Shown here one piece after another: positions 4,323 through 24,695 of a stretch of 24,695 nt of DNA. Location of the stretch: positions 1-24,695 of the forward strand of contig JADFJB010000063.1 in assembly GCA_022566355.1 (NCBI GenBank), written 5' to 3'. The position numbers and the translations under genes were made by a program. Position 1 is the stretch's first letter. Every line of letters starts with the position of its first letter. The notes under the pieces were generated by a model that saw only the letters and a list, made by a program, of their open reading frames with translations, did not search any database and was not told where the DNA came from. The stretch comes from a candidate division KSB1 bacterium. Its GTDB lineage: Bacteria; Zhuqueibacterota; JdFR-76; DREG01.

Positions 4323-4375
4323 TTGTACATTAATTTATTATGTACAAATATTGTGTACGTAACAATTAAATGTAC
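4323..4375 (+). promoter_or_regulatory. TGTAC-motif array, putative autoregulatory operator of the AbiE-like pair
   Basis: Perfect arms TTGTACAT (4323-4330) and ATGTACAA (4340-4347) flank a 9-nt AT spacer. TGTAC occurs four times, starting at 4324, 4341, 4354 and 4371, with spacings 17, 13 and 17. The array lies just upstream of the chosen start at 4394. Known AbiEi antitoxins bind inverted repeats and repress their own operon; assigning that role here is inference. Confidence 0.5.
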
Positions 4376-4393
4376 AGTTTAAAGGTAATCAAA

Positions 4394-5404
4394 ATGACCC
4401 TCAGCAATTTTGAGTTAGATATTTTAAATAATGCCGTTGATATTTTCCGCAAAACAACTGGTTTGGATGTAGATATCAAACAAGATAGTCATTTCGAGCC
4501 GATCATCCGAATCAAATACCAAAATAATGAATTTTGTTTCAATGTTGATGTCAAGCCAACTATAAACCAAGCAATGTTTAACATCAACAAGCAATTCGAA
4601 TTGTACCGAAAAAATCAACTTTTGATTACAAATTATGCTACTCCTCAAATGGCGGATCAATTGAAAAAGATGGGAATTCTATTTATAGACTTGGCTGGTA
4701 ACGCACACATTAACCAGCCACCTATATATATTCATATAAAGGGAAATAAGTTAACTAAAATCAAAAAAGATCCTGTTAAAAGATTATTTAGACCAGCAGG
4801 TTTAAAAGTGCTGTTTGCACTTTTATGTAATCCGGGTTTGGAAAAGGCATCCTACAGAGTGATCATGAAGGCCGCTAATGTTGCTTTGGGTACTGTTGAA
4901 ATTGCAATGAAGGAATTAAGGGAGTTAGGTTACCTGATTGATCTCGAAAAAAATAACCGTAAATTAGTGAGAAGAAAGAAATTATTGACTAGATGGGTTA
5001 CTGCGTATCCTGAACAATTAAGACCTGAATTATTGAAAGGTTATTATAAAACAGAAAAAGAGGATTGGTGGACTCATATAAATTTGGAGAAGTATAGTGC
5101 AAAATGGGGCGGTGAAATAGCTGCGGCTTTAATAACAAAATTTTATCGTCCCAAAATTGCTACAATTTACACTAATGAACTTGACAATCGGTTGTTGCTT
5201 GAAAACAAAATGAAAAAGAGTTCTCAAGGAGAAATAGAGATCATACAGATGTTCTGGGGATTTGAATTTAATTGGCAATTTGAGAATATCGTGCACCCAA
5301 TCCTGGTGTATGCAGATTTGGTAGCTAGTGATGCGCCAAGAAATGTTGAAATGGCTGGAAGAATATATGAGCAAGAGCTTCATCGATTTATCCAAGAAGA
5401 TTGA
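4394..5404 (+). CDS. AbiEi-family (AbiEi_2/COG4861-type) antitoxin-like transcriptional regulator
   Basis: I start at ATG 4394 because AAAGGT (4381-4386) lies 7 nt upstream; an ATG at 4370 in the same frame overlaps the TGTAC array and lacks a ribosome site. The 336-residue protein has an N-terminal restriction-enzyme-like or linker region. A conserved block follows: FIDLAGNAHINQPPIYIHIKGNK (97-119). A winged-helix region spans about 134-184 (GLKVLFALLCNPGLEKASYR, then ANVALGTVEIAMKELRELGY). The C-terminal part carries RWVTAYPEQLRPELL and KWGGEIAAALIT, and ends with HPILVYADLVASDAPRNVE. These blocks match the COG4861 family annotated as type IV toxin-antitoxin AbiEi. It overlaps the downstream nucleotidyltransferase, which supports a paired system. 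The DNA-binding role and autorepression follow from the family and from the operator-like repeats; they are not shown here. Confidence 0.8.
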   Translation: MTLSNFELDILNNAVDIFRKTTGLDVDIKQDSHFEPIIRIKYQNNEFCFNVDVKPTINQAMFNINKQFELYRKNQLLITNYATPQMADQLKKMGILFIDLAGNAHINQPPIYIHIKGNKLTKIKKDPVKRLFRPAGLKVLFALLCNPGLEKASYRVIMKAANVALGTVEIAMKELRELGYLIDLEKNNRKLVRRKKLLTRWVTAYPEQLRPELLKGYYKTEKEDWWTHINLEKYSAKWGGEIAAALITKFYRPKIATIYTNELDNRLLLENKMKKSSQGEIEIIQMFWGFEFNWQFENIVHPILVYADLVASDAPRNVEMAGRIYEQELHRFIQED

Positions 5405-6218
5405 TAAAAAAAAAGTAAATATTTTTGAACAAATCGATAAAATATCAAAGTCCTTGGAAATAGATTTTGTGATTATCGGCGCAACTGCAAGAGATATAAT
5501 TCTCAAAACTTACCATAATATTGATACAATTCGTGCTACTTACGATATTGATTTGGCAGTACAAGTGGCGAGTTGGGAGCAATTTAATAATCTAAAAATA
5601 AGCTTTATTGCATCAGGAAAATTTAAACCTTCAAAACTAGATTGCAGAATCCATTTTGAAGATGATACGATCATTGATATTATACCATTCGGGGGAATTA
5701 CGAAAGCAAATCATATACTCACTTTACCAAATAAAAAAACAATGAATTTAACAGGGTTTGAAGAAGCATTTAACACTGCCATAACTGCCCGGATAAGGTT
5801 GAATCCACTTCTCGAAATTAAATTCTTAAGTCCGTCGGGAATGGCTCTAATGAAATTAATTTCATGGGATGAGAAGTATCCTGACCGTGAAAAAGATGCC
5901 GAAGATTTATTTTTATTAATGAGTAGTTATTTGGATGCTGGTAATAGCAAGAGATTGTATGATAAAGAAAAAGATTTATTAGAAATGGATAACTTTGATT
6001 ACACACTTTCTGGTTCGAGATTATTAGGACGAGATCTTGCAATGATTTCAAATAAGGCTACTATAAAAGTAGTATTTGATATCATTAATCGCGAAACCGA
6101 TGGACGAAACAGCAAGCTTGTATTGGACATGATTGGTACGAATTATACAAAATCTATTGAAGCGCTTTCAATACTTAAAGAGCTCAAGGTTGGTATTCTG
6201 GATAGGATCAATATTTAA
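5367..6218 (+). CDS. nucleotidyltransferase partner (COG4849/AbiEii-like putative toxin)
   Basis: I start at ATG 5367 because GGAAG (5357-5361) precedes it by 5 nt; the frame is open from an ATG at 5328 that lacks one. The gene overlaps the end of the antitoxin-like gene by 38 nt, implying translational coupling. The 283-residue protein has the nucleotidyltransferase-fold signature: GATARD at 38-43, the metal-binding pair YDIDLAV (D60, D62) and a third carboxylate in IIDIIPFGG (D104). A helical C-terminal half follows, including SPSGMALMKLISWDEK and KDAEDLFLLM. AbiEii/MenA-type toxins transfer nucleotides to RNA; whether this one acts on tRNA is unknown. All predicted catalytic acids are present, so it looks active. 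A housekeeping nucleotidyltransferase is less likely given the partner. Confidence 0.8.
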   Translation: MSKSFIDLSKKIDKKKVNIFEQIDKISKSLEIDFVIIGATARDIILKTYHNIDTIRATYDIDLAVQVASWEQFNNLKISFIASGKFKPSKLDCRIHFEDDTIIDIIPFGGITKANHILTLPNKKTMNLTGFEEAFNTAITARIRLNPLLEIKFLSPSGMALMKLISWDEKYPDREKDAEDLFLLMSSYLDAGNSKRLYDKEKDLLEMDNFDYTLSGSRLLGRDLAMISNKATIKVVFDIINRETDGRNSKLVLDMIGTNYTKSIEALSILKELKVGILDRINI

Positions 6219-12039: not shown

Positions 12040-15000
12040 CTAACGAATCAATATCATTCGTTTTATTTGGTGATGGTTGTCACTTGAAAATTTATAATAA
12101 TAGATTCCGGAAGGAACCAGATTTCCTAATCGATCCTTACCGTCCCATGAAACCCGGTGAATCCCCGGTTCATAAGTTTTATTTGTCAAAATATGGATTA
12201 ATTGTCCAAGAGTATTGAATATATGAATCGTTACTGCTTCTTTGGCAGGCATGTGAAATTGAATCACTGTGTTCGTTTGGCCAAGTTTTAAAGCCAATGG
12301 ATTGGGAAAATTTTGATCCAATTGAAAATAGGAAGGCAATTGAAACCAAACCTGGACAGGTCCATGTTCTGTAATGAAGCCTTGAATATTTTTATCCAAC
12401 AACTTATAGTAATACCGAAAACCGGGAATTATATCTTCATCGAGAAATTCATAGTTCCCATCAAGATTTGGTGGAATTAATTGAGAATTAATTTTTTTAT
12501 AACCCAAATCCTTTTGCTTTGATCGCAAAATGTCAAATCCTAAATTATCAGACTCAAATGTGGTTTTCCAGTGTAATAAAACGGTATTTGATGCCAGATC
12601 TGCTTGGGCATTAAATTGAACAAGTTTAACCGATACGATTACTGTGACAAACCATTTAAATGAAACAGTATCTTCACTGTCTGATACAAATACCTCCACA
12701 ATATCCTGGCCGGAAAAATTTGGATTGGATTCATAAACAAAACTAACAGATTGACTCACTTCTACGTCATTTAATTCCCAAATATAGGTTAACTCTTCTT
12801 CGTCAGGATCTGTAATTTTCAGGCTAAATTCAATTGAACGACCCCGGATTATGGTAGTGTCGCCTGCAGGATGTACATTTGTAATCATTGGCGGTCTGTT
12901 TACATTTATAACATCGATTATAACAGTATCCTTGACTACTCCACCACGGTTGTCTGCAACCGAATATGCAATTGGATGCTCACCGCTTTGCCTAAAATTA
13001 GGCGTCCAGTCAAACCGCCAGGATACAGCGTTCACTTTAGTAACAACAGCTCCATCCGGTAGTTCATTGACCTCGACGTTTACAGGATCGCTTTCGGGGT
13101 CAATCACTGAAATATCAAAACTGACAAACTCGTTCTCCCTGACTTGTAAATCAGGAGTACTTGAAACTATTAACGGAATTTCATTTTCAATGGCTGTTAT
13201 ATGATAAGATAATACTTGGTTTGGTAAACTGGCAGCAAAGGCTAACGCTTCTATTTGTGTTGCGTTTTCACCAACCCGTAACTGGCTTTTGGCTATTCCT
13301 TCGTCGTTAGTCAGTTTAATAGAATCACCCTCAACTGTCGCCTCACCATCGGATACGACAAAAGCAACAGGTTCATTTGGTACCGGATTATTGTAAATAT
13401 CAGTAACTTTTACCACAAGGGGTTCGGAAAGATAATATCCTTTTGTTCCGATTTGCTGGTCTCCGCTAACCAAAATTATATTGTGTGCCACACTGGAAGA
13501 TATCTGAACAGTGAAGACAACCTTTTCTGCTGGATTCTTTACTAAGCTGGCAGCAATCTTTGCAATTCCGGGAGTAGTCTTAGCTTGTATTATTGTACTG
13601 GCAAGACCAGAACTATTTGAAACTACCGGTTGTGCAGTTATAATAATGGCATCGCCCTCAATAACTTCAAACATGACTCCCGTACCGGAAACAGGGTTAT
13701 GAAACGTATCTCTGGTAATAATTGTCATAGATGTGCTTTGTTCCAAAGGACGAATAACCTGGTTATCACCGGAGTGTAAATCAATTTGTGTTGCTCCGGA
13801 TGGTGCCGTATTGGCAAAAAATGTAAGTGATACACCTTGTACTAAACTTGATTTGGCACTAATAACTTGAGTAATCAGTTCCGGACCAAGTATAGGCTTG
13901 GTTGAAGCTTTGCCAAAAGCATCTGATAAAATGGGTTGTGGTTCAACGAATGAGCCACTGCCGGCACTAAATTGAAAACTAACAGGGACATCCATCACAG
14001 GATCGTCATTTGCATCTAAAGTTTCAACAATTAAGGGTTGGTTCAAAGTATCACCGACTATTCCGGTTTGAAGATCTCCGGAAACTGCAAGTATTTTCGC
14101 CACTGGATTCCGAACTCCGCTGACACTGAAAATTATAGGATTACCTGTCAGACCATCTGCAATCGCTTCAATTATATTCGTTCCTTCGGATTCGCTTAAA
14201 ATATAATGAGTCGAAGCAAACCCTAATGAATCAGTTAGTACAGGTTGGATTTCGACAAAATAACCACCTGTTGTTTGTGACGTAAATGTTACCGGGTAAT
14301 TAGGAACCGGATTATCGAACATATCTGTGACAGAAACAACAATTGGATTCGCTAAAACTGTTCCAACATTTCTGGTTTGAGCATTCCCGTCTTGTAGTTT
14401 AATTTGATTTGCTGTTGTAGAGATAAATTCAGCTACAGCTTTGCTATTTATTTCAATATTGTCATCAACATTTCTGGCATGAATAGTTTTTTTACCGGAT
14501 TTAAGAGAAGTCATATGTCCAACAGTTTGGCCGGTATCGTCAGTAACCGGTGGTTGTTCAAAAAAATTAAGCTCGCCAGTAGCAGATAAAAACACCTCTT
14601 TCCCTGCAATCGGGTTATTAAATTGATCCCGCAAAATAATAGTGATAGTTGCTTTATCCTGATTATCTGCAATGGTTGGAGAAGTTACATGAATTTCAGA
14701 ACTATCAGGATCTGTTAAATCAGGCAGGGTGGTAGCATTAAATGTGATTGGTGATTGAATTAAATCTAAGATGCCGTTGTCCGAAGTAGCTTCAATTTTA
14801 TTTAGATCCGTTCCGATTTTTGTACCTAATGTCCATGAAATTTCAGCAATTCCGCTTTCATTGGTTGATACTACCAGAGAAGTGTCGTGCTGAGCATTGG
14901 CTATTCTCCCATTACCCGTAATAATGCGAAATTTCACCTCATGTGAAGGAACAGGTAAATTTGCACTATCTACAACTTTAACCTGCACAGGTTCAATTAC

Positions 15001-18000
15001 CTTTCCAACTATTCCTGTTAGTTGGGTTTGGGTTATCGCTTCAATTTTAATGGCAGGGCTTTCTGCCGCCGAAGCCAAAATAGATATGGGTGATCCTTGT
15101 AACGGAACAAAACCATCAGAAGCTGTTACTCTTATTTGGTTGTTATTTATGCCGGCTTTGTTTCCGAGAGTAAAAATCACAGAAACCTTTCCATTACTAT
15201 TGGTATTTTTCACCACTGTGGTATCACTATTATTATCAAAGGTGCCTCCACCGGAAATCACCTGAAATTCAACAGGGATACCTGCAACCGGATTATCATT
15301 TGAATTTAAGACCAGAACTTCAATGGGTTGAGGAAGTTGGCTGTCAATTACACCAATTTGATTGTTACCTTTAATAATAGAAATCTTTTCCGCATCAAAT
15401 TTACCTGAGGCTGTAAAAACAACAGGAGAACCAACGAGAGGTAATGATCCACGCAATCCGGATGCATGAACCAGATTTGAGCCTTCCCCAACGAACGAAC
15501 CCATTCTTAAGGTGGCAGATGCAATCCCATCTTCATCTGTTGGCGTTGTCTGACTTAAATCAACTGTATCGACAAATAAACCTCCTCCTGCTATTACTTT
15601 AAAAGTAACAGGATGGTTTTTTATGGGTTCATTAATTGGATTTGTTACACGCACACGAAACGGCGCATCTAACGGTTTATTGATTATCCCAACCAACGAA
15701 TCTCCATCAACAAGAGTGATTTTGTAAGCAGTCGGCGAAACAGCTGTTGCTACAAATTCAACCGGTGATCCTTGCAATCCGTCACTGCTTGCTTGTACTC
15801 GATAAGCAAATTCACTCATATCACTACCTAAAGTTAATATAACCCCAGCTTTCCCCAAGCTATCTGTTGTAACGGATAACTGTGTTAATCCTCCGGCAAA
15901 AATACCATCACCAGAGATTATTTTAAATAAGACCGATATATTTTTTACAGGGTTTCCGAATTCATCACTAACCTCCGCAACAAAAGGTTCAACAAGTGGA
16001 AAATTTGAGATTCCTGCAATACTGTCACCCGAAACTTTCCTTAATTGAAATGCAGGCCCATGTGTTGCACTAACGGAAAAAACAATTGGAGAATCTAATA
16101 AACCCAGAGCAATGGCATGGATGCTATAATTTCCTATACTATTTCCAAAAGTAAAACTAACTTGCGCCTTTCCTTCTGAATTCGTAAGAACCGTATCAGC
16201 AGATAATGAACCCCCCAGGTTTGAAACAATACTAAAAACTACAGGAAACTTTTCAATTGGACTGTTTTGTTGATCGGAAATTTTTACCACTAAAAGTTCA
16301 GGTAAAGTAGACCCAATTTCACCACCCTGGTTTGACCCTGAGACAAATTCTATTTGTGTAGGTATTCCTGATGTGGCTATTGCTAAAAATTCCACCGGAG
16401 AGCCATTTAGTCCGTCAGCATGTGCCAGAACCCGGTTATTGGTCTCACTTTTACCTAATTCCAGGTCAACCGCTGCTTTGCCATCTTCATCTGTAAGAAC
16501 CGGTTGGATTTCTATGATCCTCCCGTCTCCTTCAACAAGCTCATATAACACAGAAACATTTGGGGTGGGATTGCCAAAATCATCAGATGCTAGTACTACC
16601 AACGGATTGGATAATACTTGTCCTGCCGGCCCAGTTTGATTATTCCCTGAAAATTCTGCAATTGTAACCGGAGCATTAGGCAAAGCCCGGATATTAAAAA
16701 TCACTTCTTGCTCGGGTACATCGAACAGGAAAGCCTTAATTGATATATCGCCAGAGCGTGAATTTAACAACACAAAAGCTTCTGATAAGCCAAGATAATT
16801 ACTAAAATATAATGGATTCCCTCCAAATCCGGAAGGTTGAAAAGTTAAGTCACGCGTTATGATTAATCTATCTAATTTTGTGTTGATATCTCTATTTCTT
16901 AAAATTAATTTATGAAAACCTTTATTTAAATTAATTTCATATGGATCTACTGCTGGAGTTTTCACACTTCCGCTTCCACGAGAGGAAACTAGATCCCAAT
17001 CCCAGGCGGATTTTTGATTACCTTGCCAAACATCCCATAAAATTTCATTAAAATCATCCACTTGAATAAAAAAAGAATCCTCTGTTCCTGATGGCGCTAG
17101 AACTCTCCCCCAAATTTTATAAATACCATCTTGATCAATATAAAAATCATACACAACCGTACTTGTATCTGACTCTCCGGCAACAGTGTTAATATAGGAT
17201 CCACCTGATGTGTTAGATGCATTGTCAACAATAAATGAATTGCCTTCAATAATTCCATCTTCTGCCTCAATTCTTATGGTTCCACTTGGATTTAAAGGAG
17301 GAATTAAACGAGCATCGCCTTCAATAATCTCATACTTGATTTTAGCAGCATAAACCGGAGATCCTAAATCATCGTTAACCTTAACAACAAGGGGGTCGGG
17401 AAATAATTGATTTAAAATACCATCTTGATCATCACCGGATTCAACTGATATAGATGCAGGAATTGTCTTTAGTGAAATTACGAAAAAATTATCAGCTGCA
17501 ACGCTTGAGTTGCCCTGGAAAATTAATCCACAATATTGCACCTGAGAATTCCCAAATAATTTATTGTTATCACTTAAAACACCATTGAAGCTACTGTCCA
17601 CAAAAATTACAAAGTCATGAGAAGTTTCTGTGGAATACGTGAATACTTTCAAAGTTGAACCGGAAACCAGATCCATATGATATTTAAATGAATTTATTTT
17701 TTGTAAAGGATTGCCTTGATCCACAGTCCATAATTGAAATTCATTTGTAGAACTTTCAGCTCTTATCATATATCCATTGGCAGTTGTAGTGGGTTCTTGC
17801 AGCATGACTAACAAACCAATTTTATCAATTTCAGATTGTGATGAGATATTCAACCAATTAAAGCCAAGTTCAATAGGCGACGTTGGTGAAATCAAGACTG
17901 CCGCTGACTTCCATCCGGATTGGCTGTTCGCTGTCTTTAAAGCGCCCTCCGATATTACAACATCATCTGAAGTTTGCCATTGCTCTCCAAGTTCGGTTCT

Positions 18001-19638
18001 GTTGAAATCCTCATCAAATTGGACAGATTCAACCGTGGACCCCATTATTGAACCATCCGAAATAGGTGAAGCATTGTTATTTTCATCGATTGCTTTTATT
18101 GCGAAATAATAGTCAGTTTTACGCTTCAACCCGGTAATAAAGATACTTTCATCAGAACCTTGTTCATTTGGAGTTTGAGAAACAATTGCTGCAGTTGCTT
18201 GTTCAAAATTGGATTCAATTATTGGATCAGTTGAAAAACGTAAATCATAATTGGATGCCGAGCCGGTTAAACTGTCGTCACCAGTCGCAGTAAAACTAAA
18301 CTGCGCAGATGTTGGACCGGTACGAACCAGAGCAAAATCGCTAATAGCAGCGGGAGGTTCCTTATCAACAACACTTGATAGGGAAAAATCATCGATATTA
18401 TTGTTCTGACTGCCTTTTAGCATAATGCCGGCATAACGAACTTCATTGGCGCCTGGGGGAGTTGTAGTATGGGTGAGCTCTCCAAAAAGTGTATTGTTGA
18501 TTTTCACCGTTATTCGAAGTTCCGGTGAATTGAAACTCCAATTCATAAAAAACAAATTCCCGGATTGGGGCATAGGCAAAAGTCCAGATTCACTTGCCAA
18601 ATTCGACCCGACCTTGCCATCAATTAATTCCCACAATTTCAGCGATCCGTTATTTAAGGTTAGTAAAAAACCGTTTGCATCAATACTTGAGGAATTTAAT
18701 AAGAAAACTACTCCTGTTTCAGATCTACCTAATTCATCGGAAGTCAGGCTATATTTGAATGTAATTGTGTTGGGGCTGGCTACGGAATTGATAACAGCCA
18801 GGTAATTATCCCAGGTGTCTTGGTTTGAACTGTTTCTCAATTCATTATTACTAATTCGATAATTCGGGTGTGTTGTCCAATTTGGGCCCAGAAAAAATCG
18901 ATCGTTAAAATTGTCTGCAAAAGATTCCGAGGCAATATACCTGGATGAAGAATTTAAACTATTTAAAATGACATCTGCCATTACTCCATAACCATCATCA
19001 TTTGGGAAGTAATCATCACTCATAAAAATACTGGACCAACTTGGAATTTCAGTGAAAGCAGTATTGATATCTACAAAATAAACCGAAATCCCTTGTGCGG
19101 ATTTTGTATCCACTAATGTTTGAAGTTGAAGATTTAAACCATCAATATTTGAATTTACCACCTGGTCTCTACTTGGAATTAATGATGAAAGATAAATTTC
19201 AATTTCAGAGCTGTAATTTGAGATGTTGTCGATTACACTTGATAAACCGTTAAATACAGTGCCAACATTACCATTTGCAATGAGATCTTCCGTTCCCAAA
19301 TGAACAATAACGATATGTGGCTGATAGAGTTGAATTGTTGATAATAAATCCTGATTGATATCATTAACTGTCGAAGCAGCATGACCTTCGTGGTCAGGGT
19401 CCGTTGAGACTCCATCGTTTTGAGTACCTACAAAATCGAAGGGCATTAATCCTGCATTTAAGAACAAATGAAGATCATCACGGAAACCACCTACATTATT
19501 GGTCGATCCGGTACCTATAACCGTAGCATCACCAAGCGGCATTACTCGAATTTGAGAAAACAGGGTGATTGAATTTATACTATTTGAAATAATAAGAAAG
19601 GCAATGAGGAAAGTTAATCCTAATTTCTTATGATTCAT
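12040..19638 (-). CDS. giant secreted protein: degenerate SGNH/CE3-like domain, ConA-like, FnIII, CBM6-like, Ig-repeat stalk, type A sorting domain
   Basis: This is a 2532-residue exported protein. AAAGG 8 nt upstream supports ATG 19638. Residues 1-29 are a signal peptide. Residues 31-229 form an SGNH hydrolase-like domain of CE3 type (GGFRDDLHLFLNAG, FDFVGTQNDG, HEGHAASTV), but the motifs read GDAT (A38 for Ser), GTED (E117 for Asn) and DDYFP (F211 for His), so catalysis is unlikely. Next come a ConA-like domain (~238-422), FnIII (~428-532), a second ConA-like domain (~540-724), then an Ig domain split by a CBM6-like insert (~787-935), followed by about eleven invasin/Big_1-like repeats to ~2200. 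Cadherin-like or PKD-like Ig domains, an FnIII-like segment and a ~97-residue sorting domain (NFPNP … GxxxVxWDGKDRLGNLVPSGIYYYKF … KRMILIR) finish it. It likely acts as a surface stalk or binder. Sorting by a type IX system is inferred. Confidence 0.88.
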   Translation of the reverse strand: MNHKKLGLTFLIAFLIISNSINSITLFSQIRVMPLGDATVIGTGSTNNVGGFRDDLHLFLNAGLMPFDFVGTQNDGVSTDPDHEGHAASTVNDINQDLLSTIQLYQPHIVIVHLGTEDLIANGNVGTVFNGLSSVIDNISNYSSEIEIYLSSLIPSRDQVVNSNIDGLNLQLQTLVDTKSAQGISVYFVDINTAFTEIPSWSSIFMSDDYFPNDDGYGVMADVILNSLNSSSRYIASESFADNFNDRFFLGPNWTTHPNYRISNNELRNSSNQDTWDNYLAVINSVASPNTITFKYSLTSDELGRSETGVVFLLNSSSIDANGFLLTLNNGSLKLWELIDGKVGSNLASESGLLPMPQSGNLFFMNWSFNSPELRITVKINNTLFGELTHTTTPPGANEVRYAGIMLKGSQNNNIDDFSLSSVVDKEPPAAISDFALVRTGPTSAQFSFTATGDDSLTGSASNYDLRFSTDPIIESNFEQATAAIVSQTPNEQGSDESIFITGLKRKTDYYFAIKAIDENNNASPISDGSIMGSTVESVQFDEDFNRTELGEQWQTSDDVVISEGALKTANSQSGWKSAAVLISPTSPIELGFNWLNISSQSEIDKIGLLVMLQEPTTTANGYMIRAESSTNEFQLWTVDQGNPLQKINSFKYHMDLVSGSTLKVFTYSTETSHDFVIFVDSSFNGVLSDNNKLFGNSQVQYCGLIFQGNSSVAADNFFVISLKTIPASISVESGDDQDGILNQLFPDPLVVKVNDDLGSPVYAAKIKYEIIEGDARLIPPLNPSGTIRIEAEDGIIEGNSFIVDNASNTSGGSYINTVAGESDTSTVVYDFYIDQDGIYKIWGRVLAPSGTEDSFFIQVDDFNEILWDVWQGNQKSAWDWDLVSSRGSGSVKTPAVDPYEINLNKGFHKLILRNRDINTKLDRLIITRDLTFQPSGFGGNPLYFSNYLGLSEAFVLLNSRSGDISIKAFLFDVPEQEVIFNIRALPNAPVTIAEFSGNNQTGPAGQVLSNPLVVLASDDFGNPTPNVSVLYELVEGDGRIIEIQPVLTDEDGKAAVDLELGKSETNNRVLAHADGLNGSPVEFLAIATSGIPTQIEFVSGSNQGGEIGSTLPELLVVKISDQQNSPIEKFPVVFSIVSNLGGSLSADTVLTNSEGKAQVSFTFGNSIGNYSIHAIALGLLDSPIVFSVSATHGPAFQLRKVSGDSIAGISNFPLVEPFVAEVSDEFGNPVKNISVLFKIISGDGIFAGGLTQLSVTTDSLGKAGVILTLGSDMSEFAYRVQASSDGLQGSPVEFVATAVSPTAYKITLVDGDSLVGIINKPLDAPFRVRVTNPINEPIKNHPVTFKVIAGGGLFVDTVDLSQTTPTDEDGIASATLRMGSFVGEGSNLVHASGLRGSLPLVGSPVVFTASGKFDAEKISIIKGNNQIGVIDSQLPQPIEVLVLNSNDNPVAGIPVEFQVISGGGTFDNNSDTTVVKNTNSNGKVSVIFTLGNKAGINNNQIRVTASDGFVPLQGSPISILASAAESPAIKIEAITQTQLTGIVGKVIEPVQVKVVDSANLPVPSHEVKFRIITGNGRIANAQHDTSLVVSTNESGIAEISWTLGTKIGTDLNKIEATSDNGILDLIQSPITFNATTLPDLTDPDSSEIHVTSPTIADNQDKATITIILRDQFNNPIAGKEVFLSATGELNFFEQPPVTDDTGQTVGHMTSLKSGKKTIHARNVDDNIEINSKAVAEFISTTANQIKLQDGNAQTRNVGTVLANPIVVSVTDMFDNPVPNYPVTFTSQTTGGYFVEIQPVLTDSLGFASTHYILSESEGTNIIEAIADGLTGNPIIFSVSGVRNPVAKILAVSGDLQTGIVGDTLNQPLIVETLDANDDPVMDVPVSFQFSAGSGSFVEPQPILSDAFGKASTKPILGPELITQVISAKSSLVQGVSLTFFANTAPSGATQIDLHSGDNQVIRPLEQSTSMTIITRDTFHNPVSGTGVMFEVIEGDAIIITAQPVVSNSSGLASTIIQAKTTPGIAKIAASLVKNPAEKVVFTVQISSSVAHNIILVSGDQQIGTKGYYLSEPLVVKVTDIYNNPVPNEPVAFVVSDGEATVEGDSIKLTNDEGIAKSQLRVGENATQIEALAFAASLPNQVLSYHITAIENEIPLIVSSTPDLQVRENEFVSFDISVIDPESDPVNVEVNELPDGAVVTKVNAVSWRFDWTPNFRQSGEHPIAYSVADNRGGVVKDTVIIDVINVNRPPMITNVHPAGDTTIIRGRSIEFSLKITDPDEEELTYIWELNDVEVSQSVSFVYESNPNFSGQDIVEVFVSDSEDTVSFKWFVTVIVSVKLVQFNAQADLASNTVLLHWKTTFESDNLGFDILRSKQKDLGYKKINSQLIPPNLDGNYEFLDEDIIPGFRYYYKLLDKNIQGFITEHGPVQVWFQLPSYFQLDQNFPNPLALKLGQTNTVIQFHMPAKEAVTIHIFNTLGQLIHILTNKTYEPGIHRVSWDGKDRLGNLVPSGIYYYKFSSDNHHQIKRMILIR
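16834..17280 (-). other. CBM6-like carbohydrate-binding domain inserted inside an Ig repeat
   Basis: Within the giant protein, residues ~787-935 read IRIEAEDGIIEGNSFIV, SGGSYINTVAGES, YDFYIDQDGIYKIWGRV and GFHKLILRNRDINTKLDRLII, the strand pattern of CBM6/CBM35-type domains. The segment before it (SVESGDDQDGILNQLFPDPL … IIEGDARLIPP) is the first half of an Ig repeat. The segment after it (LGLSEAFVLLNSRSGDISIK … VIFNIRALP) is the second half, so the domain is a nested insertion. Confidence 0.65.
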
Positions 19639-20036: not shown

Positions 20037-23000
20037 TCAATTTAAAATAATCAAACGCTTTTGCTTAACAAATTCTTCAGTTTGCATAATGTAAAAATAA
20101 ACACCTGAACTAACAATATTACCATAATCATTACGGCCATCCCAAATTGTTTGGTGATATCCAACTTGTTTTTCATCTTGAACCAGGGTTCGTATTTTCC
20201 TACCAAGAATATCGTAAACATTTATCCGTACTTCCCCTTCTTCAGGTAATTGATAATTAATCACAGTTACTTGTAATTCATAGCCGCCTTTAGGATTAAA
20301 TGGATTCGGATAACTTTGCAATAAATCAAATTCTTCAGGAAGAGGTTGAGTTATCTGTGGTTCTAAAATTTCAACAAGCTTGGGAGCAACATTAAATGAG
20401 CTAAAAGGTAAATTAATGACTTGACTATAAGCATTAAAATACGTTTGCGCCATTACTGAATAGCCAAGATCATTTGGATGGAGCTCATCGGACATATAAT
20501 CTTGACTATTTCCAGTAAATAATTGGGAGTTATCTTTAAATGGCGAATAGTGGTTTACAAGATATACCGGTTCAGATTTTCCAGTAATGGTTCCATTATT
20601 AAAATCGTCGACTAATCTTTCGATTTCATCGTTGAAAAACGGTAATTCATCCTCTGGATTTTTTCCATCTGCCAATTCCCAATCTCTATTTTTTCTTGGA
20701 ATTAATTGACTCACAAATAAGTATTCTAAAAAATTACCAAAGACGCCTTCGCGCCATTGAAGTAAATATCTTACAAATTCTGCCAGTTCACCAGAAGTTG
20801 AACTAAGGATTGTCCCGTTACTGGAATAAGGAATATTAAATGTCTCAATAGTCAAATCGTTTGTTCCTAAATGTATCATCAGGACATTTGGATTATATGT
20901 ATTCATGTTATTCGTGATATCATACTCTCCAGTGCCTAATCCGTACCCAAAATTACTTGGAAAGAATTGATTGATCTTTTTCCCAGGGAAAAAATAACCA
21001 GTATATGGATTAGATCCTTCACTACCAACAAATTCAAAACTGAAATTGGAATTTATTAATAAACCGTATAAATCCGGCCGAAATCCTTGGTTATCTGAAC
21101 TGCCTTCACCCCATGTAATTGAATCTCCTACCAACATAATTTTCTTGGTACTTGCAGGAGGAGGTATTATTATTGTTGTGGTCGGTGCATTGCTAGAATT
21201 ACTATATGGCGAAGATCCTATACCATTAAATGATCGAATCCTAAAATAATAGGTGGTACCAGATGTTAACCCAGTTATATTTGTGGATCTTAAATTAGCT
21301 GGAACACTTTTGATAGGAGAAAAATCTGGGTTATTATTCGTTAAACTACTCTCAATAATAAATCCAAACTCGCTAGTACTATTATCAAGCCACGAAAGTG
21401 CAATTTCTGACGAAGATTGTTCCTGTGCAGAAAGGTTAGTTGGAGCTATTGGTAAACTACCGTTTTTATTTGGCGTTCCAGCATTAAAATTTTGTTGGAC
21501 TTCTTCAAAAGATAACGCTCGATTATAAGCCGATACTAAATATATCTTTCCCAACCATTGACGATTATTAGAAGCCTCATTTCCCAATACTAATGGGAAA
21601 GTTGGATCCCAATTCGAAAAACCACCAGATAAAGTGACCGTTTGGTTTTGTAAAATTCCATTCACATACAGCCTTGTTGTTGATCCATCAAATGTGGAAA
21701 CAACATGTTGAGGGGATGTACTAACTGCTCCTTCTACATTCAAGACAGGATCAGCTCCATTCAACCCGCTTTGCGGTGTTCGGACACGCATTACATAGCT
21801 GGTTCCATCTTGTCCAAAAGTAAAATTCCGTGATGACTGATCCTTAGAATTGGAAATAATACGAGCCGGGCCGCTTTGGGTTAAATTCTCAATTTCAACC
21901 CAAGCTTCAACTGTCAAAGAATTAGTAGATGTCATGCTATTAAATACTTTTGTTGCCGCTCCTGATGATTGTGCTTTTACACCTTCCGATATTAAATGCA
22001 ATCCTCCATTTTGCAACCATTGCACTTTGTTAATGTCATTTATTTCCAAATCCAGTGGTTCTCCAAATCCTGAAGCATCATTAATCACATTGCCAGTACC
22101 GGAAAAATTATATAATACGATCAAACCGTCACTTACACGATTAGGATCTGTCAAAGCAATGGAATGATCTTCACTAATAGCAAGATTGCCACTTTGGTCT
22201 CGCGAAAGTACCCTAAAGTGATAAACTACACCTGGAATTAGATTCTTTAACTTAATTGAATGTTGTGTTTTCAAAGTTGTCTCTATTGATGTAATATTTC
22301 CATATCCAGAATTTGTACCATATTCAATTTGACTATCACTTATTTCATCTGTCTCCCATTGAATTACAACCGATGAATTTGTTAAGCTATCAATCACAAC
22401 ATTCGTTATTAAAGGGGTTATGTTATCCAAATAAGTTATTTTATAAACGGCATTATTAATAATTGACAAATAATAAAGATTGCCATCTGCACCGACTTTT
22501 AAATCTACCGGACCCGACACATTTGAAGCAAATTCTTCAACCTGATTATTTTGTTTTAATCTCCTAATAAAACCAAGGATATAATCAGCAAAAAAATAAT
22601 CTCCTTGATATTCTACAGGGTAGAGATCTCCCCGATAAAATGTGCCTCCGGTTATGGCCGCAGAACCTCCATTATGATTGTATGAGTATATTGGATCCTG
22701 AAATGAAGAGTTGGACGAAGATCCCTCTTCCGATGGCCAGCCATAATTAGTACCTTTAACCAAATAATTAATTTCCTCCCAGGTATCTTCTCCAACATCA
22801 TTCACATAAATTTTACCTGACTCCGGATCAACGGCAAATGTGAATGGATTTCGGAAACCAAGTGCCCAGATCTCTTCATGGGCATTTGAAGTTCCAACAA
22901 ATGGATTACCCGGGGGGATGATATTAGGATAATTATTCGGATCAATTCTCAATAATTTTCCAGAAAGAGATTCCAAAGATTGAGAAGACTCTTGAACATG

Positions 23001-24695
23001 CCCGTCTCCAACAGCAACATACAAATACCCGTCTTTGCCAAAATGGATAGCTCCTCCATTATGGTATTCGGAAGGAGAGGGGATGTCGATAATTACAACT
23101 TCACTATTAGGATCAGCAATATCCGGGTTCGTACTACTGATAGAAAAACGGCTAACTCGATTTGAGACTGGATTATTGGATGTATAATGAATATAAATAT
23201 ATCCATTCGATTCAAAGTTTGGATCAAAAGATATACCAAGTAATCCGCGTTCACCATTTGATTCAACAGGAACAGACAAGAAAGGCAAAGGAAGAAACAC
23301 GCCTTCTTTAAAAATTCGTATTTTACCAGCCTTTTCGAGGATAAAAAGTCTGCCATCGGGTGAAAATCCCATTGCTATTGGTGTATCCAAACCATCTACA
23401 ACCAGTTTATTTGAGAATAATTGCGGCAATATAACCGTTGATTCAGATGGTGGAATGCCATCGCCCACAATACTGAATACACCATCACTCACATCTGAAG
23501 GATCGCCGTCTAATGCATCAGATACTCGAACCAAACAACTGCTCGATAGCAAGTCCGGAACTGTCCAATCATAACTGCCATCATTTGGCGTCGAGTCGAT
23601 GATCTCAGTCCAGCTTTGGCCATTGTTCAACGAATATTCCAACTTCACATTCGAAATCTCTCCTTGTGAAGTCCAACTAAGCGACTGTGTGCTATTGACA
23701 AGCCAATTTTCTCCGCCATTCGCTGATGTCAATACAATGGTCTCACCGAGGATTTTTACAATTGTATAATTATCAATTACCTCTCCTGAAGGAATGATGA
23801 ATTTAAATACTGCACTAGTATTGTTTACTTCGACCAGCATGGCTCCGTAATCATCATTATACCTGACAACACTTCCTTCAATAGGAGTCCCAAAACTGCG
23901 TATACTTTTCCCACCCAATCCATTGACAAAATAAGGGAGATCATCAAAAATTATCCGTTCATAATCATGTTCATGTCCGGCAAATACTGCATCGGCTCCC
24001 CATTCTTTAAAAGGCCACTGCATAATAACTTCGGAGCCGTGATGATCACCCGAAGAATAGGGTGGGTGATGCATATAAACAAAATTAAACTGTGAACTAG
24101 AAACAGCTAAATTATTTTTTAACCAAAGAGCCTGGATTGAAGTTTTTGAAATTCCATCCGGCTCAAGAGTATCACTATCCATCGCAAAAAAATGAACCGG
24201 CCCCCATATGAACTCATAATATCTTTCATTGCCAGGTAAGGTAAAATAGTCCCGATAAGGTATTGCACCGCTAGTATTCCAATCATGATTACCTAATGAA
24301 GGAAAAAATCGATTGATATCTGCTCCAGAACCATAGGTGCCCTGATAAGGATAAATAAATTCATGATAATATTGGCCTATATTTACATCAACCGTGGATG
24401 CTTCTCCAAGATCATAGTTATTATCTCCCACAGTAATAATAAAATCCGGATTCCAACTTTTGACCAGATTGGCCACTGTCTCTTCATTATGGCCAGCATC
24501 TCCATAATCTCCAATTACTGCAAAGAGAATTGTTTCAGATGATGGAATGCCATCATCCACAATACTGAACACACCGTCACTCACATCCGATGGATCACCG
24601 TCCGCTGCATCCGACACACGAATCAAACAACTAGTCGAGGGCGCATTCGGAACTGACCAGTCATAACTACCATCATTCGGCGTCGAGCCGATGAT
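20037..24695 (-). CDS. giant secreted multi-enzyme protein: metallophosphoesterase, PQQ-type sugar dehydrogenase, LamG, FnIII, SGNH esterase, type A sorting domain (5' end missing)
   Basis: The frame is open to the right edge, so the N-terminus is missing; 1552 codons are visible, numbered here from the edge. Residues 1-49 are the end of an Ig-like (Kre9/KNH-like) repeat. Residues 56-308 are a purple-acid-phosphatase-like metallophosphoesterase with GDYGD (D63), GDNNY (D91), GNHDW (N136, H137), MHHPP and GHEHDYER (H241, H243). A second Kre9-like repeat spans 316-411. Residues 420-758 are a glucose/sorbosone dehydrogenase (LDTPIAMGFSPDGRLFILEK, ERGLLGISFDPNF, YHNGGAIHFGKDGYLYVAVG with H545, WALGFRNPF, GTNYGWP). 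FnIII (759-849), a LamG-like domain (853-1073) and FnIII (1083-1175) follow. The SGNH domain (1184-1423) has intact GDSIT (S1192), GTND (N1279) and DELHPND (D1403, H1406). The last ~98 residues are a sorting domain (SYPNPFNP … WDGRNDYGNIVSSGVYFY). Substrates are unknown; extracellular glycan or phosphoester processing is plausible. Confidence 0.88.
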   Translation of the reverse strand: MIGSTPNDGSYDWSVPNAPSTSCLIRVSDAADGDPSDVSDGVFSIVDDGIPSSETILFAVIGDYGDAGHNEETVANLVKSWNPDFIITVGDNNYDLGEASTVDVNIGQYYHEFIYPYQGTYGSGADINRFFPSLGNHDWNTSGAIPYRDYFTLPGNERYYEFIWGPVHFFAMDSDTLEPDGISKTSIQALWLKNNLAVSSSQFNFVYMHHPPYSSGDHHGSEVIMQWPFKEWGADAVFAGHEHDYERIIFDDLPYFVNGLGGKSIRSFGTPIEGSVVRYNDDYGAMLVEVNNTSAVFKFIIPSGEVIDNYTIVKILGETIVLTSANGGENWLVNSTQSLSWTSQGEISNVKLEYSLNNGQSWTEIIDSTPNDGSYDWTVPDLLSSSCLVRVSDALDGDPSDVSDGVFSIVGDGIPPSESTVILPQLFSNKLVVDGLDTPIAMGFSPDGRLFILEKAGKIRIFKEGVFLPLPFLSVPVESNGERGLLGISFDPNFESNGYIYIHYTSNNPVSNRVSRFSISSTNPDIADPNSEVVIIDIPSPSEYHNGGAIHFGKDGYLYVAVGDGHVQESSQSLESLSGKLLRIDPNNYPNIIPPGNPFVGTSNAHEEIWALGFRNPFTFAVDPESGKIYVNDVGEDTWEEINYLVKGTNYGWPSEEGSSSNSSFQDPIYSYNHNGGSAAITGGTFYRGDLYPVEYQGDYFFADYILGFIRRLKQNNQVEEFASNVSGPVDLKVGADGNLYYLSIINNAVYKITYLDNITPLITNVVIDSLTNSSVVIQWETDEISDSQIEYGTNSGYGNITSIETTLKTQHSIKLKNLIPGVVYHFRVLSRDQSGNLAISEDHSIALTDPNRVSDGLIVLYNFSGTGNVINDASGFGEPLDLEINDINKVQWLQNGGLHLISEGVKAQSSGAATKVFNSMTSTNSLTVEAWVEIENLTQSGPARIISNSKDQSSRNFTFGQDGTSYVMRVRTPQSGLNGADPVLNVEGAVSTSPQHVVSTFDGSTTRLYVNGILQNQTVTLSGGFSNWDPTFPLVLGNEASNNRQWLGKIYLVSAYNRALSFEEVQQNFNAGTPNKNGSLPIAPTNLSAQEQSSSEIALSWLDNSTSEFGFIIESSLTNNNPDFSPIKSVPANLRSTNITGLTSGTTYYFRIRSFNGIGSSPYSNSSNAPTTTIIIPPPASTKKIMLVGDSITWGEGSSDNQGFRPDLYGLLINSNFSFEFVGSEGSNPYTGYFFPGKKINQFFPSNFGYGLGTGEYDITNNMNTYNPNVLMIHLGTNDLTIETFNIPYSSNGTILSSTSGELAEFVRYLLQWREGVFGNFLEYLFVSQLIPRKNRDWELADGKNPEDELPFFNDEIERLVDDFNNGTITGKSEPVYLVNHYSPFKDNSQLFTGNSQDYMSDELHPNDLGYSVMAQTYFNAYSQVINLPFSSFNVAPKLVEILEPQITQPLPEEFDLLQSYPNPFNPKGGYELQVTVINYQLPEEGEVRINVYDILGRKIRTLVQDEKQVGYHQTIWDGRNDYGNIVSSGVYFYIMQTEEFVKQKRLIILN
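23440..23603 (-). repeat. internal DNA duplication encoding an Ig-like module, copy 1
   Basis: This stretch pairs with 24532-24695 at a constant offset of 1092 nt (364 codons) with no indels and roughly four-fifths identity by eye. Both encode the Kre9-like segment ending STPNDGSYDW…VP…SC-L/I-VRVSDA-x-DGDPSDVSDGV. The similarity may extend beyond the window edge. Confidence 0.85.
24532..24695 (-). repeat. internal DNA duplication encoding an Ig-like module, copy 2 (cut by the edge)
   Basis: This is the partner of 23440-23603. The two modules precede the metallophosphoesterase and the sugar dehydrogenase respectively, so each catalytic domain has its own copy of the linker module, as if enzyme cassettes had been joined by recombination or duplication. 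Confidence 0.85.

Follow-up and report, generated by a model that had tools for sequence, protein, structure and literature searches.

What protein is encoded by a single open frame that joins a metallophosphoesterase, a PQQ-type sugar dehydrogenase, a LamG domain and an SGNH esterase, and would these enzymes act together? The frame lies at one end of the window analyzed here, which is one whole contig of 24695 bases. We regard it, as the probable reading though with some reserve, as a T9SS-exported modular cargo with two competent-looking hydrolases, a glycan-holding LamG domain and a propeller of doubtful redox role.

Domain organization of the fusion protein

The frame runs stop-free on the minus strand from 24695 to 20037 and encodes 1552 amino acids followed by a stop. 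The contig end falls inside the first Ig repeat (Ig1), so the 5' end and the start of the gene are lost, together with any signal peptide encoded there. The order is a cut Ig repeat, a calcineurin-like phosphoesterase, a second Ig repeat (Ig2), GSDH, FnIII, LamG, FnIII, SGNH and a T9SS C-terminal signal, as follows:

20037-24695, minus strand: whole open frame of 1552 aa, truncated 5' at the end of the contig
24549-24695, minus strand: incomplete linker repeat Ig1, aa 1-49; GC3 0.49; 82% DNA identity to Ig2
23742-24542, minus strand: metallophosphoesterase of purple-acid-phosphatase type, aa 52-318; D63, D91, Y94, N136, H209, H241, H243
23463-23741, minus strand: Ig2 linker repeat, aa 319-411; GC3 0.44
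22425-23438, minus strand: GSDH six-bladed propeller, aa 420-757; H545, R615 and N616 kept; F618, G728 and V730 at the canonical Gln, Arg and Arg
22158-22424, minus strand: FnIII, aa 758-846
21474-22157, minus strand: LamG/concanavalin A-like domain, aa 847-1074
21180-21461, minus strand: FnIII, aa 1079-1172
20400-21158, minus strand: putative SGNH esterase, aa 1180-1432; S1192, N1279, D1403, H1406; closest solved structure 2vpt
20040-20378, minus strand: T9SS type A C-terminal sorting domain, aa 1440-1552

Pfam identified GSDH (E 1.2e-56), LamG_3 (6.4e-22), fn3 (6.1e-17), Metallophos (1.7e-15) and Lipase_GDSL (5.1e-11), values far outside chance; the Ig repeats on either side of the phosphoesterase escape Pfam recognition. 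One open frame together with the Pfam and NCBIfam matches establishes that the fusion described in the first-pass annotation, with its domains, their order and their coordinates, is real. The catalytic motifs, all of which had been called apparently intact, are so by residue comparison in the phosphoesterase and the SGNH esterase and only in part in the PQQ-type domain. Recovery of the missing N-terminus had also been proposed, and searches of the same genome that used residues 1-413 or Ig2 as the query returned no contig that carries it.

Phosphatase domain

The phosphoesterase is the best supported of the three predicted enzymes. It contains all seven metal ligands of purple acid phosphatases, including the tyrosine, and each of them is conserved in 65-76 of the 76 rows of an alignment. 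The top matches of a 13-sequence profile were the rat and human purple acid phosphatases, and the AlphaFold2 model of the domain (pLDDT 90.7) matched 2bq8 and 5uq6 with Z 29.2 and an rmsd of 2.1-2.2 over 241 residues.

This subfamily reaches at most 40% identity to anything else in its own phylum, taken here as the 82 genomes of the collection used and all searched, and is mostly 50-66% identical to proteins of Ignavibacteria, Calditrichota, Bacteroidota and Chloroflexota. Since identity reaches 66% outside the phylum against a maximum of 40% inside, and the tree contains a starred split, the domain was probably gained laterally. The deep order inside the subfamily is unresolved in that tree, so no donor can be named. 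The subfamily spans distant phyla and sits within large exported proteins. One Chloroflexota protein (L078:6240-8798) presents it fused to an M1 peptidase.

SGNH domain and export

The SGNH domain keeps Ser1192, Asn1279, Asp1403 and His1406, belonging to blocks I, III and V. Its closest solved structure is 2vpt (E 2.7e-11, in an alignment covering part of the domain), which we take to be a member of carbohydrate esterase family 3 (CE3). By their conserved residues, the phosphatase and SGNH domains are two competent-looking hydrolases.

The NCBIfam T9SS type A sorting domain was matched with 27.7 bits against a cut-off of 23, and the translocon protein SprA was identified in the same genome (PF14349, E 1.2e-41). 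Both bear out the earlier description of an exported, sorted protein, and from them we infer a location at the cell surface.

The neighboring gene (12040-19638, minus strand) encodes a protein of 2532 amino acids comprising an SGNH domain at its start, ten Big_1 repeats and a T9SS domain. The catalytic positions of this SGNH domain are replaced (GDS by GDA, GTND by GTED and D-x-x-H by D-D-Y-F), and its SGNH relatives in the phylum keep the residues that it has lost. It is probably a dead esterase.

The GSDH propeller and PQQ

The GSDH domain was modeled as a six-bladed propeller (pLDDT 82.8) with Z 33-36 to PQQ enzymes. Under one alternative explanation all three enzymatic domains are active, the propeller being a PQQ-dependent aldose dehydrogenase working on scavenged PQQ, and the protein dismantles a phosphorylated and acylated glycan. 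The model agrees with this in its matches to 3a9g (Z 36.3), 1cq1 (Z 35.8) and 2g8s (Z 34.8), as does the best single-sequence match, 2ism, titled putative glucose dehydrogenase. The catalytic His545, the Arg615-Asn616 pair and the Tyr-Gly-Trp motif are also retained. However, the Hedgehog-interacting protein (HHIP; 7pgm, Z 35.4), which has the same fold, is not a known sugar dehydrogenase and was solved with heparin, matches about equally well and is the best profile match of a seven-sequence GSDH alignment.

Two residue losses also count against this explanation. The C-terminal Arg-x-Arg is absent, with GPVD in place of the RIRD of E. coli YliI, and Phe618 replaces the Gln that follows Arg-Asn-Pro in 2ism, 2g8s and 3a9g. 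In bacterial enzymes the C-terminal arginines bind the carboxylate of PQQ, and their site is presumably that of Arg406/Arg408 in the Acinetobacter enzyme (PMC6881789). By a simple pattern, and with some frames cut short, the arginine pair was found in none of 39 GSDH frames from the fetched loci, 33 of them from the same phylum, and it is present in YliI.

The presence of PQQ biosynthesis genes had been proposed as a check, and it gave a negative answer: in the genome of the fusion no PqqC was found and no PqqE match exceeded the cut-off, and PqqC was over the cut-off in none of the phylum's 82 genomes. With the anchoring residues missing and the synthesis genes undetected, the oxidizing function tentatively ascribed to the protein is left unsupported. 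GSDH proteins are common in the phylum (22 of 59 genomes), though PqqC does not reach its cut-off in any of the 82.

The residue losses are not decisive against PQQ use, because some PQQ enzymes of the AA12 family bind PQQ without the residues of the canonical site (PMC4133262, PMC6881789) and PQQ can be scavenged, as in E. coli, which likewise lacks PQQ synthesis and depends on external PQQ (PMC6881789). PQQ use by this propeller appears doubtful nevertheless, given the loss of Arg-x-Arg and Gln and the failure of PqqC to reach the cut-off in any of the 82 genomes. The domain has the sugar-dehydrogenase fold and more likely does not have the role of a classical PQQ enzyme, and the explanation with three active domains is accordingly held to be unlikely. 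The label 'PQQ-dependent sugar dehydrogenase' may be wrong for proteins of this phylum, where the arginine pair was absent from all 33 frames checked and no PqqC passed its cut-off.

Linker repeats and possible domain exchange

Ig1 and Ig2 are identical in 128 of 156 bases, the longest exact run being of 13. Their GC3 exceeds that of 93-codon stretches elsewhere in the fusion and its neighbor (mean 0.27, sd 0.05, highest 0.43). High GC3 may stem from causes other than transfer; composition and similarity fit an exchange of modules via linkers and hint that further such repeats may lie upstream of the contig end. The genome assembly contains two copies of the repeat only.

A second alternative is neutral shuffling, where Ig and FnIII cassettes recombine and modules co-occur without functional cooperation. 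It is favored by the likeness and the distinct GC3 of the Ig copies and by the different partners with which relatives of the same domains occur: M1 peptidase with phosphatase (L078), the C-terminal domain of GH115 and CBM60 with GSDH (L088), FnIII with SGNH (L101), PA14 with phosphatase (L076) and LamG with phosphatase. Against it stand the unbroken frame and the conservation of active-site residues in two of the enzymes, both of which point to selection acting on the parts. Neutral shuffling is held to be somewhat less probable still than the explanation with three active domains. An assembly chimera of two genes joined at an Ig repeat, suspected because the contig terminates in such a repeat and repeats break assemblies, is very improbable, as a 13-base exact run is too short to make assembler confusion likely, the assembly holds two copies only and the frame is open across every joint.

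Distribution of the architecture

No second example of the architecture was identified in the following searches. The whole protein, searched against the 82 genomes of the phylum with six candidates scored per genome, gave matches to single parts only. In searches with GSDH (59 genomes) and with the phosphatase (82 genomes), no other genome paired the two on a listed contig. A pattern scan across the genome contig collection found relatives of the parts and none with the whole architecture; no record of the plasmid collection covered >80% of the query, and no paper combining the domain names with T9SS was found in the literature library searched. The scans are not exhaustive, and within the collections searched the architecture is new, each of its parts being already known. 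The domain order, which the first-pass annotation had called unfamiliar, is so to this extent.

Separate GSDH and phosphatase genes were identified together and on the same strand in three Chloroflexota loci (L070, L072 and L086). In L070 and L086 an M1 peptidase gene lies between the two; L072 has none. The scan that found these loci favors those with both genes. Among 400 Chloroflexota genomes sampled evenly, 1 of 34 phosphatase sites had GSDH nearby, and this site is in the genome of L072 itself. The link between the two genes is real for a small group and is not general. A link between such an operon and the fusion was rejected on this count and on the GSDH tree, which does not place the GSDH of the fusion as sister to those of L070, L072 and L086.

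By RpoB the genome falls with the FCB group, near Calditrichota (64% identity) and Ignavibacteria/Bacteroidota (59-60% to Ignavibacteria), and is not resolved further. Elsewhere in the window (4370-6218, plus strand) an AbiEi-type antitoxin gene overlaps a gene of 296 aa with a weak PADLOC match (PDC-M21B), possibly a toxin-antitoxin or defense pair.

Proposed function

As an exported modular cargo, the protein would be built from interchangeable modules and probably held at the cell surface. Its phosphatase domain, of the two-metal purple-acid-phosphatase type, would cleave phosphate esters outside the cell, and the SGNH domain, related to an enzyme of acetyl-xylan-esterase type, would strip acyl groups off polysaccharide. 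LamG, and perhaps the propeller too, may anchor the protein on glycan. The cargo of T9SS gains an unusual combination of phosphatase and esterase.

For joint action of the three domains on one complex substrate, as first imagined, no evidence was found. The Chloroflexota gene pairing, a possible functional link, holds for three loci but for only 1 of the 34 evenly sampled sites. That one surface protein dephosphorylates, deacylates and oxidizes one glycan, its propeller using PQQ or another electron carrier at a non-canonical site in a phylum without detected PQQ synthesis, is regarded as improbable.

Comparison with known systems

The phosphatase domain resembles the mammalian-type purple acid phosphatases (TRAP; 1ute, 2bq8, 5uq6) in the seven ligands and overall fold, but it is only 21-22% identical to them, shorter, bacterial and placed inside a large exported fusion. 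The propeller shares its fold, His, Arg-Asn and Tyr-Gly-Trp with soluble aldose sugar dehydrogenases and PQQ glucose dehydrogenases (YliI 2g8s, 3a9g, 3das, 2ism, 1cq1), and differs from them by lacking the C-terminal Arg-x-Arg, by Phe for Gln and by being fused. The HHIP propeller (7pgm, 2wft) is similar in fold and in the GSDH family overall, but it has lost the Arg-Asn pair that is kept here. The SGNH lipolytic enzyme 2vpt has in common the GDS block, G-x-N-D and D-x-x-H; in contrast to it, the present domain aligns over part of its length and has an insert ahead of the last block. The Chloroflexota runs of GSDH, M1 peptidase (missing from L072) and phosphatase likewise bring the GSDH and phosphatase families together, but as separate genes and with a GSDH that is not sister to this one. 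Finally, a T9SS protein of the same phylum (genome G015, L101, 1315 aa) also comprises FnIII, SGNH and a sorting domain, with 48% identity over residues 1176-1551, but has neither the phosphatase nor GSDH.
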